NCBI RefSeq assembly: GCF_000214375.1
Contig: NC_015578.1
Span: 1,178,001 to 1,242,000, forward strand
Origin: Treponema primitia ZAS-2
Lineage (GTDB): Bacteria > Spirochaetota > Spirochaetia > Treponematales > Breznakiellaceae
Length of the DNA stretch: 64,000 nucleotides
Direction: 5' to 3'
In this document: positions 15,430 to 61,356 of the stretch, piece by piece
How the letters are laid out: each line of letters starts with the position of its first letter
Position numbering within the stretch: position 1 is the first letter of the stretch
The notes under the pieces: generated by a model
Seen by the model: only the letters and a program-made list of their open reading frames with translations
Databases searched by the model: none
Told to the model about the DNA's origin: nothing
Program-made: the position numbers and the translations under genes

Positions 15430-17610
15430 ATGAGTTTGTCTAAACGGGTTTCCCTGCTGATTGCAATTCTGGTGTTTTTTGTTTCTCTTTGTATCGGCCT
15501 CATTTCTCTGGCGGTCGCTACCAGGGTAGTGTTGGCGACTTCTGAAGACGCCATCAGGGCCGAAGCAAATCTGGGCGCTGAAATAGTATCCGCCATGATT
15601 GATACCCAGCTTGATAGATTACAGGAACTGGCAAACCGCCGCCGGGTCCAGTCCCTGAATTGGGAAGACCAGGTAGAGGACCTTATCACTGAGATGGACC
15701 GGGTGGGGTATCTGGATATGGCCATCGTTACCCCCGATGGGACCGCCCATTATATAAAGGAGAAAACTACCGCCATGCTCGGCGATAGGGATTATATAAT
15801 ACGGGCCTTTCAGGGAGAAAAGGCGGTTTCCGATGTCATTGTCAGCCGGGTTATCAATAAGCCGGTGGTTATGTTTGCAGTCCCCATCTATGCAGAGGGC
15901 AAGGTGGCGCCACTTGCAACACCGACTTCAGTCGGCAAGTTCCCCGCGCCACTTGCAACGCAGTTTCCCGCGCCACTTGCAACGCAGTTTCCCGCGCCAC
16001 TTGCAACGCAGTTTCCCGCGCAGGTCCTCATCAGCAGGCAGGATGGGACCTTTCTGGATACTATGACCAAAAGTATCGGCGTTTCCAACGGCGGTTATGC
16101 CTTTATGATTAACCACAACGGGGTTATCATTGCACATCAGAATACTGACTATGTAGTAAAACAGATTGCCCCGATAGAAGAAGCAAAGGCTAACCCTGCA
16201 CTGCTATCCCTGGGGAATGCGGTCCGGGAAATGATCAGCAGCAAACAGGGGTTCACCAGTTACACTGTTGACAAGCGGGGTATGGTGGCCGCCTATGCCC
16301 CTGTTGAGGGCTTGAACTGGATACTTGCGGCTACCGCCGCGCAGGAAACTATTCTTGAGGGGGTTACTGCCCTGCGGAATCTCCTTATTATCGTTGTGGC
16401 AATTTTCCTTGCCCTCGGGATTATCGCAGCTCTATTGATAGGTAAATCCGTTTCAAAACCCCTGGTTAAAATGATCCCCATTCTGGAAGATATGTCCAAC
16501 GGGGACTTAACAAAAAAACTGGAAGTAAAATCAAAGGATGAGATCGGCGCTATGGCCGATAAATTCAATACCTCCATCGGGAATCTCTCCGGCATGGTTT
16601 CGGGGACCAAGCTGGCGGTGGGAAAACTTAAAGCAATGGCCGACAATCTTTACAGTACCATGCAGCAAAGCTCCGAAGCGGCGGGCCTTATTGCACAAAG
16701 CGTCTCCTTAATCAAGCAGAAGGCTATGTCCCAGGCGGCATCGGTAACCGAAACTCATGCCACCATTGGGGAAATAAAATCCCACGCTGAAAAGCTTAAC
16801 GATTCTATCGAAAGTCAGAGTGCAGCGGTGGTGGAATCCTCATCGGCTATTGAGGAAATGGCGGCTAACATTAAATCTGTTGCGGAGATTCTTACCAGGA
16901 ATTCCGAATCCATGGAGGAGCTCCTTAAGGCTTCGGAAACCGGCAAGGATGGTATCCAGCAGGTCTCGGAGGTGCTCAAAAAACTTGAGGATGATTCCGA
17001 GGGCCTCCTTGAAGCCAGCTCCATGATTCAAAGTATAGCCCAGCAGACCAACCTCCTGGCGATGAACGCCGCAGTCGAGGCGGCCCATGCGGGAGAGTCC
17101 GGCCTGGGTTTTGCGGTAGTTGCCAACGAGATACGAAAACTGGCGGAGAATTCATCCGCCCAGGGCAAGTCAATTTCCGCTGTCCTCAATAACCTCAAGG
17201 GCCAGATAAACCAGGCCGTCTCCCTGGCAGGGGAATCCCAGGAACGCTTCTCCCGGGTTTCGGAATTGCTGGATCAGGTCCGTAACCAAGAGACGGTGAT
17301 CAAGAACGCCATGGATGAGCAGACCACGGGGAGTTCCCAGGTCCTGGAGGCCATCCATGCGATCAAAGAGATTACCACCCAGGTAAAGGACGGTTCCGGC
17401 GAGATGGTGCATGCCAGCGCCGCCATCCTTGAAGAGATGGATCATCTTGCAGGGGCCACCGAGGAAACCAACTCAGAGGTGGACGGCATAGCGGGCAGTA
17501 CAGACCGGATCAATAACGCGGTGAGCGCCCTTAACGAGATCACCGGTGAAACCAAGGAAAGTATTTCCCGGCTCTCCCGGGATGTGGACAAGTTTAAAGT
17601 TGCCCAATAG
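15430..17610 (+). CDS. Methyl-accepting chemotaxis protein (dCache-HAMP-MA) with in-frame repeat insertion
   Basis: 726 residues. TM1 (about 8-32), a double-Cache-like periplasmic sensor (about 35-305), TM2 (LLIIVVAIFLALGIIAALLI, about 317-336), HAMP, and the cytoplasmic signalling domain with the hairpin tip IAQQTNLLAMNAAVEAAHAG that binds CheA/CheW. Between the two Cache modules, residues about 160-198 consist of a low-complexity FPAPLATQ repeat (three exact 24-bp units plus a modified first unit) that replaces the normal short strand turn. The start has GAGG in the upstream two-hairpin repeat. The ligand is unknown; relatives with this sensor often bind amino acids or other small metabolites. 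Confidence 0.93.
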   Translation: MSLSKRVSLLIAILVFFVSLCIGLISLAVATRVVLATSEDAIRAEANLGAEIVSAMIDTQLDRLQELANRRRVQSLNWEDQVEDLITEMDRVGYLDMAIVTPDGTAHYIKEKTTAMLGDRDYIIRAFQGEKAVSDVIVSRVINKPVVMFAVPIYAEGKVAPLATPTSVGKFPAPLATQFPAPLATQFPAPLATQFPAQVLISRQDGTFLDTMTKSIGVSNGGYAFMINHNGVIIAHQNTDYVVKQIAPIEEAKANPALLSLGNAVREMISSKQGFTSYTVDKRGMVAAYAPVEGLNWILAATAAQETILEGVTALRNLLIIVVAIFLALGIIAALLIGKSVSKPLVKMIPILEDMSNGDLTKKLEVKSKDEIGAMADKFNTSIGNLSGMVSGTKLAVGKLKAMADNLYSTMQQSSEAAGLIAQSVSLIKQKAMSQAASVTETHATIGEIKSHAEKLNDSIESQSAAVVESSSAIEEMAANIKSVAEILTRNSESMEELLKASETGKDGIQQVSEVLKKLEDDSEGLLEASSMIQSIAQQTNLLAMNAAVEAAHAGESGLGFAVVANEIRKLAENSSAQGKSISAVLNNLKGQINQAVSLAGESQERFSRVSELLDQVRNQETVIKNAMDEQTTGSSQVLEAIHAIKEITTQVKDGSGEMVHASAAILEEMDHLAGATEETNSEVDGIAGSTDRINNAVSALNEITGETKESISRLSRDVDKFKVAQ
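15905..16020 (-). repeat. Tandem 24-bp repeat inside the MCP coding sequence
   Basis: Three exact 24-bp units (core CGCCACTTGCAACGCAG) follow one altered unit that carries an inserted 15-bp segment containing the palindrome CCGACTTCAGTCGG. The units keep the reading frame and encode FPAPLATQ. Related units, in the opposite orientation, occur at 39761, 41112 and 59107. Confidence 0.9.
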
Positions 17611-24139: not shown

Positions 24140-26503
24140 ATGAGTGACTATCTGGATCCAAATAATGAGGAGCTTCTCAAAGACTTTTTTAGTGAAGCCC
24201 AGATGCAAGTCGATACTCTGGAACAGAATATTCTGGTCCTTGAGAATGAAGGCGGCAACAAAGACGCGGTAGACGAAATATTCCGTGCGGCCCATACCCT
24301 GAAAGGGGGGTCCGCGACTGTGGAAATGATGGAATTGTCCCATTTTACCCACATGGTAGAGGATGTTTTGGATGCTATCCGCTCGGATCAGCTTGCGGTC
24401 AACGAGGATGTGGTAGACACCCTCCTGGCAGCCATCGATATCATTAAAGCCATGCTCGGACAGCGCATGGAAGGGGCGATCTATCAGGCGGATACTTCCG
24501 AGATGGAAGGCCGGCTGGAGGCTTTGATCCCCGAAAGCTCCAAGGGCAAGAAAGGGGGCGCCGTAAAGGCTAAACCCCCTGCGGCTGCCGCTCCTGCCCC
24601 GGCCGCAGCTGCCGTTGCTGCTCCCGCCGCCCCTGCCGGGGGTCTTTCGGAAGACGATCTCCGGGAACTGCGGGAATCCGTGGATGGCGGAATGCCTATC
24701 TTCCGCATTTCCGTAGTTTTTGACGAAAGCAGCCTGATGAATACCGTTGGGGGTATCCAGGTATACGCCGCCCTCAAGGGGGATGGCACGGTACTGCGGA
24801 CCATACCGGATTTTGAACAGCTCTACGAGGATAATTTCTACCCCACGGTGGAATATTACGTTGCCAGCAATAAAACCCCGGAGGATCTGAAAAAACACGT
24901 TCTCATCCCCGATGTATCCCTTTCAGCCATTGTGACTGATGTAAGCAAACCTGCCGCCGAGGCCGCCCCTGCTCCTGCCGCTGCTCCGGCGCCGGTTGCT
25001 GCTCCTGCTGCCCCGGCTCCTGCAGCCGCCCCAGCGGAAGCTGCCGCCCCTGCGGCAAAATCTGCGGCAGCCACCGCAGCAGCCGGTGAGGATGCCAAGA
25101 AGGCCGGGAAAGAGGCGGGCTCCATACTCAGGGTAGACTCCAAACGCATTGACGACCTCCTCAACCTGGTATCCGAAACGGTTATCACCAAGGCGACCTT
25201 TAACCAGATAAGTAACCAGTTCGGCGATTTGGTAAACGATCTCCACAGCATAGAGGGCGCCTACCGGGAGAAAATTAAAAACCTCTTCGATCGGCTTCCG
25301 GATTATCTGGAGGGCATCCAGGAAGGACGCTCTATAAAGGATGTCCGTAAGGAAATCAACGAAGAATACGGGGATATTTTCGCCCTCTTTGACGGCTTTG
25401 AAGCGTCCCTGAAAAACAATATGGGCAAATTCCGGTCCACCTCCCAGAACCTGGGGCGGATCACTGGGGAACTCCAGGAAGGGGTCATGCGTATCCGTAT
25501 GGTGCCCATCAGCCAGATATTCAGCCGTTTTCCCCGGCTCGTCCGGGACCTGTCCAAGTCTCTTAATAAGAAAATTAATCTGGTTATCGAAGGGGAGGAG
25601 ACCGAACTGGATAAGTCGGTTATTGAAGACCTCCTGGACCCGATCATGCACTCGGTACGGAACTCCATCGACCACGGGATCGAATCCCAGGAAGAACGGA
25701 AGGCTTCGGGCAAACCCGAGGAAGGCATGGTCCTCCTCAAGGCAACCAACGAAGGCAATATGATCGTCATCGAGATTTCCGATGACGGCAAGGGCATAGA
25801 CGTGGAAGCGGTCAAGGGCAAGGCGGTTGAACGGGGGCTTATCAGTCCCAACAAGCTCCTTACAGACCCGGAAGCCTTCAACCTGATCTTTGAACCCGGG
25901 TTTTCCACTGCCAAAACCATCACCAGTATATCCGGCCGGGGGGTCGGCCTGGATGTAGTCCGCCGGTCCATTGAAAAACTCAACGGAACCGTTACGGTTA
26001 CCTCCGAAAAAGGGAAGGGCACTACTTTCCTCATCAAACTGCCCCTCACCCTGGCAATTATCCAGGGCCTTTTGGTCCGGGTGGGCGGGGAAATCTACTC
26101 TATCCCAATTACATCGGTCATCGAAAGCCTGCGGATTAAGCCCGAGGAAATCAGGATGATCGACAATTACGAAGTGTTCAACATCCGTAACGATGTTATC
26201 TCCCTGCTCAGGCTCAACCGGCTCTTTGGTATACACACCGAGGAACAGCAGGATTACAATTTTATCGTTATCGTGGGCACCGCAGAAAAGAAGATGGGCT
26301 TCATGGTGGACAGCCTGATCGGCGAAGAAGACGTGGTCATCAAACCCCTGCGGGATCAGTTCACCAACTCTCCGGGCATTGCCGGGGCGTCCATACTGGG
26401 GGACGGTTCAGTCTCCCTGATCATCGACGTAAGTCAGCTATTGGAACTGGGGCTCCACCAGGAATTGGAAGCGCGGAGGGTTCGGGAGTTGTCGAACCGG
26501 TAG
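24140..26503 (+). CDS. cheA: Chemotaxis histidine kinase CheA
   Basis: 787 residues. The P1/Hpt domain has the phosphorylated His in AAHTLKGGSATV (H52). An Ala/Pro linker leads to a P2-like response-regulator-binding domain (about 173-265) and a second long Ala/Pro linker. The P3 dimerisation region (from about 330) is followed by P4 ATPase (NSIDHGIE, DDGKGID, GRGVGLDVV) and P5 CheW-like domains. It phosphorylates CheY in response to MCPs. No Shine-Dalgarno is visible; TTGACG-16 bp-TAAGAC ends 10 nt before the ATG, so the message may be leaderless. First gene of the operon cheA, cheW/cheR-like, cheX. Confidence 0.96.
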   Translation: MSDYLDPNNEELLKDFFSEAQMQVDTLEQNILVLENEGGNKDAVDEIFRAAHTLKGGSATVEMMELSHFTHMVEDVLDAIRSDQLAVNEDVVDTLLAAIDIIKAMLGQRMEGAIYQADTSEMEGRLEALIPESSKGKKGGAVKAKPPAAAAPAPAAAAVAAPAAPAGGLSEDDLRELRESVDGGMPIFRISVVFDESSLMNTVGGIQVYAALKGDGTVLRTIPDFEQLYEDNFYPTVEYYVASNKTPEDLKKHVLIPDVSLSAIVTDVSKPAAEAAPAPAAAPAPVAAPAAPAPAAAPAEAAAPAAKSAAATAAAGEDAKKAGKEAGSILRVDSKRIDDLLNLVSETVITKATFNQISNQFGDLVNDLHSIEGAYREKIKNLFDRLPDYLEGIQEGRSIKDVRKEINEEYGDIFALFDGFEASLKNNMGKFRSTSQNLGRITGELQEGVMRIRMVPISQIFSRFPRLVRDLSKSLNKKINLVIEGEETELDKSVIEDLLDPIMHSVRNSIDHGIESQEERKASGKPEEGMVLLKATNEGNMIVIEISDDGKGIDVEAVKGKAVERGLISPNKLLTDPEAFNLIFEPGFSTAKTITSISGRGVGLDVVRRSIEKLNGTVTVTSEKGKGTTFLIKLPLTLAIIQGLLVRVGGEIYSIPITSVIESLRIKPEEIRMIDNYEVFNIRNDVISLLRLNRLFGIHTEEQQDYNFIVIVGTAEKKMGFMVDSLIGEEDVVIKPLRDQFTNSPGIAGASILGDGSVSLIIDVSQLLELGLHQELEARRVRELSNR

Positions 26504-39041: not shown

Positions 39042-39137
39042 GAAATGGCCTCCAAAAAAGCTTTCGTTGTAAAAACAACAGACTATAGAGCTATCATTTT
39101 CTATATTTTCAGTATAAGGTCAATACGGGGGTATTCC

Positions 39138-39839
39138 ATGATACGGCAAATCGTAAAAATCGATACTGAAAAATGCAATGGCTGCGGCATTTGCGCCGAG
39201 GCCTGCCATGAGGCGGCTATAGGGATAGTAGATGGTAAGGCAACATTGCTGCGGGACGATTACTGCGATGGTATGGGGAACTGCCTCCCCGCCTGCCCAA
39301 GCGGGGCCATCGCCTTTGAAGAACGGGAGGCGGCTGCATACGACGAAAAGGCGGTTAAGGCGAACCAGGCGGCAGGAACCGGGCAGAGGGCGGGGACGGA
39401 ACCGGGGACTGGGAGTGCTGGGCAGAAGACAGCGCAAGCCGGGAGCACCGGGACTGTAGAAAGCCGGCTCAGTCAGTGGCCGGTGCAGATCAAGCTGGCT
39501 CCGGTGAAGGCGCCCTTTTTTGACCAGGCCAGGCTTTTGGTGAGTGCCGACTGCGGGGCCTACGCTTACGGCAATTTTCATAATGAGTTTATGAAGGGGC
39601 GTATCACCCTGATCGGCTGCCCAAAACTGGACCAGACTGATTACAGCGAAAAATTAACGGAAATATTCAAGGGGAACGATATCAAGTCCGTGACCGTGGT
39701 GAGGATGGAGGTTCCCTGCTGCGGTGGGATCGAGAATGCCGTGATCGCGGCGCTGAAAAACTGCGTTGCAAGTAGCGGGAAGATAATACCCTGGGAGGCG
39801 GTGACCCTGTCGGTTAAGGGGGAGCTGCTGGAGGGGTAG
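39138..39839 (+). CDS. 4Fe-4S ferredoxin-domain protein
   Basis: 233 residues from the ATG at 39138, which has GGGGG upstream. Two [4Fe-4S] motifs, CNGCGICAEACHEAA and CDGMGNCLPACPSGA (residues about 14-60), then a Gly/Thr/Ala-rich linker (about 75-110). A C-terminal domain has conserved Cys residues (SADCGAYAYG, IGCPKLDQ, VPCCGGIENAV). It probably carries electrons in anaerobic redox metabolism; partner unknown. Near the C terminus, KNCVASSGK is encoded by a degenerate copy of the 24-bp repeat. Confidence 0.88.
   Translation: MIRQIVKIDTEKCNGCGICAEACHEAAIGIVDGKATLLRDDYCDGMGNCLPACPSGAIAFEEREAAAYDEKAVKANQAAGTGQRAGTEPGTGSAGQKTAQAGSTGTVESRLSQWPVQIKLAPVKAPFFDQARLLVSADCGAYAYGNFHNEFMKGRITLIGCPKLDQTDYSEKLTEIFKGNDIKSVTVVRMEVPCCGGIENAVIAALKNCVASSGKIIPWEAVTLSVKGELLEG
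39761..39780 (+). repeat. Partial 24-bp repeat unit in the ferredoxin gene
   Basis: CTGCGTTGCAAGTAGCGGGA matches 19-20 bases of the unit seen at 41112 and 59107, in a third reading frame (NCVAS). Confidence 0.55.
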
Positions 39840-40048: not shown

Positions 40049-40891
40049 ATGAAAGCTATCAGGAAATACAATAACAATATCATCCTCGCAAATGACCAGG
40101 GTCATGAAGTCATTGTCCTGGGGAAAGGGATAGGGTTTCAGGCAAATCCGGGGGACCCGGTGGATACAAGGCTTATCGAAAAAACCTTTATTCCCCAGGA
40201 GACCGTCCAAATCAGCCGTTTCGCCGATACTCTTGCGGATCTGCCCTATGAATATATACTCCTGGCAACTAAAGTCGTGGATTGCGGGAAGGAACTATTG
40301 CAGGCCGAGCTAAACCCCAGTGTGGTAATTGCCCTAGCAGACCATTTCTCCGGTACCTTGCCCCATTTTGCGGAACGTAAAACCCTGGAGTCTCCCCTCA
40401 AGTGGGACCTCCGGCATCTTTATCCCCGTGAATTTAAGGCGAGTATGCGGGGACTGGAGATTATCCGGCAGGAACGGCACGAGGATTACCCCGAATATGA
40501 GGCCTACAATATAGCCCTGCATTTTATCAATGCGGAGACTGATACTGCGGATATGCCTACCACGTTCAAAATCGTGGCGATTACCAGCGATATTATCGGG
40601 ATTATTAAAGAGTCCCTGCATATCAACTTCGATGAAGAATCCTTTGATGTAATGCCCTTTGTGATTCATCTGCGGAATTTGGTGCTGAAATACACCGTGA
40701 ATCCGGAACAGAAAATCCGGGGGGATGATGACTTATACGCCCTGGTGATGAAGCGTTATCCCGAAGCAGCGGATTGCTGCACACGGATCTGCGCATATTT
40801 GCGGGAAACCCACGGTTGGGAACCGGTACGGAACGATCGCTTGTTTCTGGTACTGCATATCAAACGTATCTCCGATGGGATGGCAAAGTGA
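40049..40891 (+). CDS. licT: BglG/LicT-family transcription antiterminator
   Basis: 280 residues. The N-terminal RNA-binding CAT domain (MKAIRKYNNNIILANDQGHEVIVLGKGIGFQ, about 1-55) is followed by PRD1 (about 65-170, including LADHFSGTLPHF and a DLRHLYPREF segment) and PRD2 (about 175-280, including VIHLRNLVLKY and HIKRI). PTS phosphorylation of PRD histidines controls dimerisation. It binds the RAT sequence 73-128 bp upstream and allows read-through when a beta-glucoside is transported. First gene of the bgl operon; its stop overlaps the HAD gene by 4 bp. Confidence 0.94.
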   Translation: MKAIRKYNNNIILANDQGHEVIVLGKGIGFQANPGDPVDTRLIEKTFIPQETVQISRFADTLADLPYEYILLATKVVDCGKELLQAELNPSVVIALADHFSGTLPHFAERKTLESPLKWDLRHLYPREFKASMRGLEIIRQERHEDYPEYEAYNIALHFINAETDTADMPTTFKIVAITSDIIGIIKESLHINFDEESFDVMPFVIHLRNLVLKYTVNPEQKIRGDDDLYALVMKRYPEAADCCTRICAYLRETHGWEPVRNDRLFLVLHIKRISDGMAK

Positions 40892-41772
40892 AGGGCAAGA
40901 TAGTGTTTTTAGACTTTGACGGTACCGTGGGGGACCGCAACTTTATACCCTTCTCCGCTTCTCGCGCCTGCCGCAGGGCACGGGCTAACGGGCACATCCT
41001 CTACCTCGCCACCGGGAGGTCCCTGGTGCAGGTCAATCCCGGGCTGGTTAAAAAAATGTTTGACGGGGCAGTGTATTCCTCGGGCGCGTATATTGAAGCT
41101 GCGCCGGAACTGCGCGGGGAACTGCGTTGCAAGTGGCGCGGGGGCAAGCGGGAACTTATTTACACTGCGGTCATGGACAGCGCTCTGGTAGACCGGCTCA
41201 TCGGCTTTTTGGATAAGCATGGAGCCTTCTATATGCTGGAACTGGCGGACCGGGTGATTGCCGGTCCCGGCTTTGATGCATATTTCAAAGCCCTCTTTAC
41301 AGGTAGAAAGTGGACTCCGGCTTTGCTCTTGGAAAAGTTTTTTGTCGGAATGATTTACCGCAGGAGTCTCTCCCTGAATGAACCAATGCTGCACCGTGCG
41401 GATGTTCTCAAGCTGGTCTTCATGATCCGGGGGGGTATTAGCTTTGAGGATATACAGAAGGAATTCGGCGGGGAATGTGAAATTGTCCGTAGCTCTATCC
41501 CTATTACGGGTATGTCCGGGGGGGAAATCAGCCCGAAAGGGGTACACAAGGGAGCGGCGCTGCTCAAGGTTATTGCCCGCCACGGCATAGCGAGAGAAAA
41601 CAGCATTGCTATTGGGGACAGCGATAACGACCGCACCATGATAGAAGCTGCAGGGATCGGCATTGCCATGGGTAACGGAGATGAAAAGCTGAAGGCCATT
41701 GCAGACGATGTTACGGACACACTCTACCGGAATGGTCTGGCCAAGGCGTTCAAAAAATACGGTTTAGTGTGA
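40888..41772 (+). CDS. Cof-type HAD phosphatase with in-frame repeat insertion
   Basis: 294 residues from GTG at 40888, overlapping the licT stop (GTGA). HAD motif I FLDFDGTVGD (D9 nucleophile, D11), motif II ATGRS, motif III Lys in SPKGVHKGAAL, motif IV AIGDSDNDRTMI. A Cof-type sugar-phosphate or nucleotide phosphatase of the cytoplasm. Residues about 74-88 ([15 protein letters not shown]) are encoded by a 24-bp repeat unit plus part of a second, placed after the first cap strands; without it the sequence reads straight through. Substrate unknown; a hexose phosphate is likely from context. Confidence 0.88.
   Translation: MKGKIVFLDFDGTVGDRNFIPFSASRACRRARANGHILYLATGRSLVQVNPGLVKKMFDGAVYSSGAYIEAAPELRGELRCKWRGGKRELIYTAVMDSALVDRLIGFLDKHGAFYMLELADRVIAGPGFDAYFKALFTGRKWTPALLLEKFFVGMIYRRSLSLNEPMLHRADVLKLVFMIRGGISFEDIQKEFGGECEIVRSSIPITGMSGGEISPKGVHKGAALLKVIARHGIARENSIAIGDSDNDRTMIEAAGIGIAMGNGDEKLKAIADDVTDTLYRNGLAKAFKKYGLV
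41112..41148 (+). repeat. 24-bp repeat unit inside the HAD gene
   Basis: One full unit (41112-41135, core CTGCGTTGCAAGTGGCG) and the first 9 bases of a second unit. It is in frame and encodes RGELRCKW. Confidence 0.85.
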
Positions 41773-59008: not shown

Positions 59009-59106
59009 CTCCTAAAGAAAAATTACGGAAAAATAATAGCACTCATCTGAATATTATTCAAACACCCCCAGGCTTCTTCCCTTAAAGTTAAAGCAGGTAT
59101 TTATCT

Positions 59107-59158
59107 GCGCGGGGAACTTCGTTGCAAGTAGCGCGGGGAACTTCGTTGCAAGTAGCGC
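59107..59158 (+). repeat. Two exact tandem 24-bp repeat units upstream of the second MCP
   Basis: Units at 59107-59130 and 59131-59154 are identical (core GGGGAACTTCGTTGCAAGTA), followed by a further GCGC. They lie 18 bp before the MCP start. The unit differs from the coding copies by having TA at the end, which makes a TAG stop in one frame. Confidence 0.9.
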
Positions 59159-59175: not shown

Positions 59176-61356
59176 ATGAAACTCAGAGTACGCTTAAGCA
59201 TATTGGTAATAGCAATAATGGTAGCGGTTATTTCCGTTATTTCTGTCGTCATTCTGAGCCGCGCTTCGGAAATGCAGACGGAAACAGCCATAGAAAGTAC
59301 AACGAACATGGCTAATATGTATGCCATGGATTTACGGCGGCGTTTTGAAACCTATATGCAAACCGCAATCCTGCTGTCCCAGATAATGAAGGATTACGAA
59401 TCCGTGGACCTAAGCCAGCGGCGTATCCGCTACAATGGCATCATACGCAGTGTGTTGGTGGAAAACCCGAGTTATTTGGGTATTTTTACTATATGGAAGC
59501 CCAATGCCCTGGACGGCAGGGATGCTGAATTTGCCAATACCCCAGGTACCGATGAGACCGGCCGTTATATAAGCCGGTACCACCGGGATTCAGGCCTGAT
59601 AACCCTAAGCCTCTTTGATGCATATAACGAGACACTGGAAGGGGCAAGCGGGGTTATGAGTATCGCCAACCCTGTTTGGCGGGAAGCCAGGGGTTCCACA
59701 GTTTTGGTGGTGGATGTCACGGTCCCCATAGTATCATCCCAGGGTGAAATGGTGGCCCTAGTGGGGATTAATATTGATATCAGCGCCATGCAGGACATAG
59801 TCTCGGGGATTAAACCCTATGGAACGGGAATAGCAACGGTCTATTCCAATGACGGGACCGTGGCGGCCCACAATATTCCTGCGCGGACCGGTCAGCATAT
59901 GGTGGAAACCGATACGCCCCTTTTTAAAGACTATACCTCCCTGGCATTGGAATGTATACAACAGGGAAAACCCGTCAATTTCCAGGGACATTCCCCGGCC
60001 CTGGATGTGGATCTCCAGATAATTATTGAGCCCTTTACGGTTTCTGAAACCACCACTCCCTGGTCCATAATGATAGCCATTCCCATGGATAAGGTGCTGG
60101 AAGATGTACAGGCATTGACCTTTTTCACCATTATACTATCCCTGGTTGCCATGATTGCCGCAGGGGTAATTATCTTTTTTGTGGCCGGCAGTATAGCAAA
60201 GCCCATCGTTAATGTTTCCCGTACCCTCAAGGATATTTCCGAAGGGGAAGGGGATTTGACCAAGCAGATTGCCGTCAAATCCGCTGATGAGATCGGCGAT
60301 CTGGCCCGGTACTTCAACATGACCCTGGAAAAAATCAGGGACCTGGTGATCACCATCAAAAAACAGGCCGTAGCCCTCTTCAATATTGGTAACGATCTCT
60401 CCTCCAATATGACAGAAACTGCTGCGGCGATAAATGAGATCACCGCCAATGTCCAGAGCATTAAAGGCCGGATTCTCAACCAATCTGCCTCGGTGACTGA
60501 AACAAATGCGACCATGGAGCAGATCACCGTCAATATCAACAAACTGGACGAACTCATTGAACAGCAGTCCGTTAATGTGGCCCAGTCATCTTCCTCAATT
60601 GAACAAATGCTCGCCAATATTCAATCGGTTACCCAGACCCTGAAAAAAAACGCAGATAATGTAACTGATTTGGCCACCGCTTCGGAGGTTGGCCGCTCCA
60701 GCCTTCAGGAGGTAGCCGGAGATATTCTGGAAATTACCCGGGAATCCGAGGGGCTTCTGGAGATCAATTCGGTGATGGAAAATATCGCCAGCCAGACCAA
60801 CCTTCTTTCCATGAATGCCGCCATTGAAGCCGCCCACGCCGGAGAAGCGGGCAAAGGTTTTGCGGTGGTGGCGGATGAAATACGCAAACTCGCCGAATCT
60901 TCGGGGGAACAGTCCAAGACCATTTCTGTGATACTCAGGAAAATCAAGGACGCCATTGACAAGATCACTAAATCTACCGACGAGGTGCTTACTAAATTTG
61001 AAGCCATTGATTTGGGGGTTAAAACCGTTTCGGATCAGGAAGGAAATATACGCAGCGCCATGGAAGAACAGAATACCGGGAGCCAGCAGATCCTGGAGGC
61101 CATAGGGCAACTGAACAATATAACCCAGATGGTCAAAAGCGGTTCCATGGAGATGCTTGAGGGGAGCAAAGAAGTTATCCAGGAGAGCAAAAACCTGGAG
61201 ATGGTTACCCAGGAAATCACCGACGGGATGAACGAGATGGCCACCGGGGCGGAGGAGATCAATGTGGCGGTAAGCGAGGTAAACAACATCTCAGGGGAAA
61301 ACAAGGAAAACATAGACATCCTGGTCAAGGAGGTTTCCCGGTTTAAGGTCGAATAA
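59176..61356 (+). CDS. Methyl-accepting chemotaxis protein (dCache-HAMP-MA)
   Basis: 726 residues from the ATG at 59176, chosen because GGAGG lies 9 nt before it; homology starts with the membrane anchor [21 protein letters not shown] double-Cache sensor (about 35-310: [30 protein letters not shown]), TM2 (about 318-345), HAMP ([20 protein letters not shown]), and the signalling domain with the tip [20 protein letters not shown]. Unlike the first MCP it has no repeat inside the sensor. Ligand unknown. Confidence 0.94.

Follow-up and report, generated by a model that had tools for sequence, protein, structure and literature searches.

A short dispersed repeat of Treponema primitia that enters genes in frame and is probably a non-autonomous insertion element

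Repeat copies in the analysed window

The window analysed here is a stretch of 64,000 nucleotides (G000:C1:1178001-1242000) from the genome of Treponema primitia ZAS-2, which forms a single contig of 4,059,867 bp. A preliminary description had claimed related 24-bp units at four places of this window. All four are present, and with their extents refined the units and the genes concerned are the following (N denotes a free position of the unit, described below):

15430 to 17610, plus strand: gene of a methyl-accepting chemotaxis protein (MCP) of 726 aa, an ORF named from its sequence; host of the array
15908 to 16022, minus strand: four-unit array (24+24+24+39 bp; net insert 111 bp) inside this MCP gene, its opposite-orientation reading giving FPAPLATQ repeats
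39045 to 39839, plus strand: gene of a ferredoxin-like 4Fe-4S protein, an ORF named from its CxxCxxC motifs; host of the 12-bp derivative
39762 to 39777, plus strand: 12-bp derivative, target TGCG followed by TTGCAAGTAGCG, adding VASS to the ferredoxin-like protein
40888 to 41772, plus strand: HAD hydrolase gene (ORF and Pfam Hydrolase_3); host of the single unit
41111 to 41138, plus strand: single 24-bp unit with TGCG flank in this HAD phosphatase gene, translated as a 10-residue stretch
59106 to 59157, plus strand: two tandem 24-bp units with N=A, non-coding, in the leader just 5' of an MCP gene
59176 to 61356, plus strand: MCP gene downstream of the tandem pair, its ATG at 59176 preceded by GGAGG

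If the window is scanned for a 13-bp core with at most two mismatches, 8 matches are found, all of them exact, compared to an expectation of 2.25; none of 100 shuffles reaches 8. Frame assignment confirmed that the three genes carrying copies use three different frames, as had been proposed. The ferredoxin copy had been regarded as degenerate. Its presence is certain, but comparison with orthologues identifies it as a real 12-bp derivative and not as a decayed full 24-mer: the protein reads ALKNCVASSGK in T. primitia versus ALKNCGK or ALKNSGK in 4 orthologues of the same genus. The only known RNA families detected in the window were two tRNAs. The window also contains tandem repeats of 24 and 45 bp (24584-24638 and 24951-25053) that code for Ala/Pro within a long ORF and are unrelated in sequence to the 24-bp element.

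Structure of the unit

To describe the unit we parsed 99 loci from approximately 530 kb of sequence around copies. In T. primitia it reads TGCG-CGGGGAACTK-CGTTGCAAGTN-GCG, and the layout of a parsed locus is TGCG-CGGGGAACT-K-CGTTGCAAGT-N-GCG with K and N as free positions. The form found in relatives is CGGGAAACTTCGTTGCA-nnn-TGCG. A hairpin module that is 15 bp longer (TGCCGACTAAAGTCGG and variants) may stand in place of K, leading to forms of 39 and 54 bp; one, two and possibly three modules occur per unit, and their variants include a paired two-sided change from CCGACT/AGTCGG to CCGGCT/AGCCGG. Tandem arrays are common, with 1-5 units per locus.

The net insert lengths are 24, 39, 48, 54, 63, 72, 78, 93, 96, 102, 111, 120 and 135 bp, all of the form 24k+15m. 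A length divisible by three had been noted before, and it holds for every parsed net length in genic and intergenic loci alike. Because intergenic copies share it, staying in frame is an inherent feature of the element and not chosen site by site.

The element is strand-asymmetric. The 24-mer folds no better than its shuffles (z=0.3 for the short form), and no inverted repeat beyond GCGC was found between the ends TGCGCGGGG and AAGTNGCG. On the left flank a C precedes TGCG in 49 of 88 cases, while the right flank favors C or G.

Two further arrangements were observed. Three consecutive 15-bp hairpin modules with degenerate 24-mer ends lie at genome position 2385824-2385868 (L067), and this row of three suggests that the module is able to multiply on its own. 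The goat rumen Treponema MAG RGIG3210 (L250, 1622 onward) contains an array of a closely related unit, TGCGCGGGGAACTCTCGTTGCAAA, with a period of 25 bp, which is not divisible by three.

Occurrence in the genome and among treponemes

The number of copies in the genome depends on the pattern and the mismatch limit. A 17-mer with at most two mismatches gave 103 matches, a 21-mer with at most one mismatch 118, and the 24-bp core with at most three mismatches 142, compared to 0 for the reversed pattern in each case. We therefore state 118-142 near-exact units for the T. primitia genome. The parsed stretches cover 103 of the 142 core matches; the other 39 units were counted only, without classification. 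The prospect that the window might hold the only copies is thus refuted by well over a hundred further ones.

A scan of GTDB genomes with an exact pattern, in which the records of the window's own genome were left out, revealed a second high-copy genome, Treponema sp. Crp329_bin9 (G244). It also detected treponeme MAGs with a low copy number, for the most part Emb289P3 bins. In Crp329_bin9, 68 loci were parsed, and its near-exact units number 114. The left part of its elements is the same and the right part is variable (GCA-nnn-TGCG), a comparison of the two ends that is biased, the left part having been fixed in the exact query. The genic context in Crp329_bin9 is less pronounced, with 26 of 68 loci in genes, in all six frames.

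In a survey of 394 genomes of the order, 28 had at least one match, the T. primitia genome (118) and Crp329_bin9 (114) being outstanding. These two belong to different genera, and many genomes of the same genera have zero matches. The distribution is patchy, as for bursts of mobile elements.

Host genes and reading frames

Genes were called with a codon-usage gene finder built for this analysis. About 61 of the 99 loci lie wholly within a predicted gene, a mild depletion (P=0.018) compared to the 0.72 expected from random 28-bp windows. All six frames are used among the 61 genic loci (same-strand 11/4/17, opposite 8/15/6). Hosts confirmed by Pfam include DeoC, RelA/SpoT, PrmC, RecG, MutL, a family B DNA polymerase (PolB), an M3 peptidase, NifH + nitrogenase-component-1 protein, an OmpR-type response regulator and the HAD phosphatase of the window. 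One single ORF (L088:1967-4168, minus strand) has a NifH/frxC domain and a nitrogenase component 1 type domain, with the element inside the second.

The unit had been described as open in all six frames. This is correct for the 24-mer unless N=A, which creates TAG in one frame, and it is not correct for the hairpin-bearing 39-mer with its stop in one or two frames, so that the complete MCP array is not open in all six frames. The TAG reported for one frame of the non-coding copies is there, N being A in them. The frame prone to TAG under N=A is under-used (4 of 61 loci, P=0.018); none of these four copies has N=A (P=0.026), and hairpin forms do not occur among them. The HAD copy is read on the same strand in this frame and has N=G. 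The other stop-prone frame, on the minus strand, where TAAAG would give a stop, contains a single hairpin form, and this form carries the stop-free variant TGAAG. Such a bias in frames and variants would be expected if broken genes were selected against.

Empty sites and target

Orthologues were searched with a concatenated query of host fragments, leading to matches in five genomes of the same genus. For about 20 loci, including the MCP and ferredoxin copies of the window, insert-free orthologues or homologues of solved structure were found, and none of the orthologues compared at these loci was seen to share the insert. The concern that orthologues might have the same residues at the same places was not borne out. 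The difference is exactly 24 bp for PolB (versus G039, G074 and G103) and 102 bp for RelA (versus G103 and G137). The solved structure 8qps, aligned to DeoC, is without exactly 8 residues at the insert, and the solved homologue of RelA resumes beyond a query gap of 37 residues. An MCP homologue in G150 has no stretch corresponding to the 111-bp array. At the HAD locus the sole support for absence is the alignment to the solved homologue PDB 3fzq, which is gapped at the insert. The PolB gene of G123 has an element copy of its own approximately 40 bp from the T. primitia insertion point.

The leader of an atpK-like gene (genome 1526389-1526639; L055:2990-3240) contains a triplicated repeat of approximately 85 bp with a GCC..TTTGGTTGGC hairpin. 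The first two copies of this repeat bear the element; copy 3 is element-free and reads gaacTGCGCAGCT, with TGCG present. The M3 peptidase and response-regulator orthologues in G074, both with an ungapped junction, also have TGCG where the element is missing, as do the ferredoxin orthologues. The evidence for TGCG is less clean in RelA and two further cases; several of the orthologue alignments are gapped near the junction.

Judged from these alignments, it is most likely the target that contributes the conserved left T, because relatives mostly show T or C where the right-hand N is not T. The right-end N was considered as target base and rejected on the basis of four sites, two of which are ungapped: at positions with A, G or C as N, relatives have T or C. 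The terminal GCG could belong to the target or to the element, with a duplication of 3 bp possible and none longer. Three more junctions of 12 bp in the genome resemble the ferredoxin case and are candidates by sequence; the 12-bp forms may have arisen by slippage deletion or by direct insertion.

In sibling genomes other short palindromes, CGGACTTTAGTCCG and GGGACTTTAGTCCC, occupy linker positions in RelA and a HydF-like GTPase where T. primitia has the 24-bp element (L128/L148 and L137 of G103; L129/L134 of G137). They are perhaps another family of micro-elements at the same permissive spots.

Possible mechanisms

Units have appeared at new sites, as is evident from the sites empty in relatives; the TGCG target, the fixed lengths, the frames and the tandem growth are also directly visible. 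We consider it probable that the repeat acts as a micro-insertion element of a non-autonomous kind, its 24-bp unit being copied into TGCG sites that were there before. The small, protein-tolerated, self-spreading element suggested at the outset is to a large extent supported by the approximately 61 of 99 loci that are genic, in six frames, and by the insert-free orthologues. Gene conversion, proposed there as a driver, is conceivable. The unit would insert at an existing TGCG, preferably CTGCG, the T of the target would stay on the left, and no duplication would arise beyond the ambiguous 3-bp GCG. One or more 15-bp hairpin modules at K would lead to inserts of 24, 39, 54 bp etc., and additional units would join in tandem. 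Insertion into a gene would usually add at least 8 residues without breaking it, because the lengths are divisible by three and five or six frames of the 24-bp unit contain no stop. A trans-acting nuclease or recombinase may read the conserved core of approximately 21 nt, and persistence in genes might be mere tolerance without benefit. More tentatively, we find it conceivable that the 24-bp unit, with the 15-bp hairpin cassette as optional cargo, itself transposes by means of an enzyme inserting it 3' of the T of TGCG. The size divisible by three and the open frames would then have evolved for life inside genes, and the element would steadily supply the core proteins of gut treponemes with new peptide segments.

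Such copies might be put down to chance similarity or to tandem repeats of low complexity, and a tandem form is indeed seen in the MCP gene and elsewhere. The counts, however, far exceed the controls (103-142 matches versus 0 for the reversed pattern, and a window count reached by no shuffle), which refutes this explanation and leaves it with practically no probability. One could also regard the repeat as a functional motif that was selected as protein linker, protein-binding site or regulatory DNA and arose by convergence, and the conservation of the core across genera would fit. It is contradicted by the frames and by the empty sites, since six frames mean six different peptides, and both orientations, unrelated genes, intergenic copies and insert-free orthologues occur; we consider it very improbable.

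With regard to the route of insertion, a REP/REPIN-like element could be moved by a Y1 transposase (RAYT, IS200/IS605-type) that inserts 3' of TGCG without duplication. The target kept on the left, the lack of a long duplication, the strand asymmetry, the hairpin module with its paired two-sided change and at least one Y1_Tnp gene each in the window genome and in Crp329_bin9 are in agreement with this idea. On the other hand, Y1_Tnp is missing from the copy-bearing genomes G351 (12 copies) and G350 (7) and present in copy-free ones, so that its presence does not track copy number; no full element was found beside the Y1 genes scanned, the loci are mostly genic and not intergenic, and a strand bias is absent. 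We therefore regard a Y1 enzyme as unlikely. Two family searches over 41 genomes, one over Crp329_bin9 and motif scans of gene neighbourhoods showed no association with RAYT/Y1 as mover. No mobilising enzyme was found. Eleven divergent Y1_Tnp-like genes were observed in G344, which has zero element copies. The main rival is template switching without any enzyme, which we judge doubtful. A strand ending in TGCG would pair with the TGCG of an existing copy during replication or repair, copy to the next GCG (24, 39 or 12 bp off) and return at the target GCG, the lengths mirroring the GCG spacing of the template. This is supported by the TGCG microhomology at the best-resolved empty sites, by insert lengths equal to GCG-to-GCG spacings, by a 12-bp form that starts at the internal TGCG present when K=G, the native site having AACTGCG or AATTGCG, and by the absence of both a transposase association and a replichore orientation bias. 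The latter, expected for insertion into single-stranded DNA of the lagging strand, was not found among the 99 loci (56 leading, P=0.23). What template switching does not explain is the conservation of one core of approximately 21 nt over several genera and its amplification in few genomes.

Relation to known repeats

Elhai et al. 2008 (Genome Res 18:1484) reportedly described small dispersed repeats (SDRs) in Nostoc and other cyanobacteria. By analogy, the T. primitia element seems to work like these SDRs and like the Rickettsia palindromic elements (RPE), the closest in behavior. SDR units measure about 20 bp and are described as possibly mobile and repeated in tandem (PMC2884548), and SDR5 of Nostoc is precisely inserted inside a short HIP1 site (PMC4390886). 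Compared by description, the T. primitia unit is similar in size (24 bp versus approximately 20-27 bp), in being dispersed in and between genes and in a mobility that is here supported by empty sites. It differs in lineage and in target (TGCG versus HIP1); the modular 15-bp hairpin and the six-frame genic use are features measured for the T. primitia element.

RPEs are often inserted in-frame in unrelated genes, adding residues (PMC10969869, PMC3733652); they have been described as approximately 150 bp long, and RPE-4 and RPE-6 end in CGTC (PMC3733652). The resemblance to RPEs proposed in the preliminary description holds for in-frame insertion in unrelated genes and does not extend to size and palindrome: RPEs are palindromes of about 100-150 bp, whereas the T. 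primitia unit has 24 bp, is not a strong palindrome and lacks a CGTC end. REP/REPIN sequences have 20-40 bp, a high copy number and clusters, with some copies genic (PMC3733652, PMC3116915). The T. primitia element is likewise short, high-copy and clustered, with a hairpin in its long forms. Unlike REP/RAYT systems, its consensus has no GTAG/CGTC tag and its short form no stable palindrome; it is mostly genic (61 of 99), generally not in head-to-head pairs and not found in full beside the RAYT genes scanned. It shares with MITEs and ERIC/RUP-type repeats the character of a non-autonomous dispersed insertion, but is far shorter, without terminal inverted repeats or a clear target duplication (at most GCG), and no parent IS was found. 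Literature searches on T. primitia and on intragenic or palindromic repeats in treponemes gave no report of the element.

Significance

Of the dispersed elements whose coding insertions can be demonstrated by empty sites together with a readable target motif, this is one of the smallest. It makes two questions testable, namely how repeats of 20-30 bp move when no transposase is visible, and whether open frames and lengths divisible by three evolve in elements for a life in genes. Close relatives range from zero to more than 100 copies, which allows comparative tests. Extra residues are found in constrained proteins such as RelA/SpoT, DeoC, MutL, PolB and a nitrogenase-like oxidoreductase, so that the element represents a natural experiment on insertion tolerance. 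Copies thus lie in important genes of this termite-gut spirochete, whose proteins simply gain a few amino acids because the length of the element is divisible by three.
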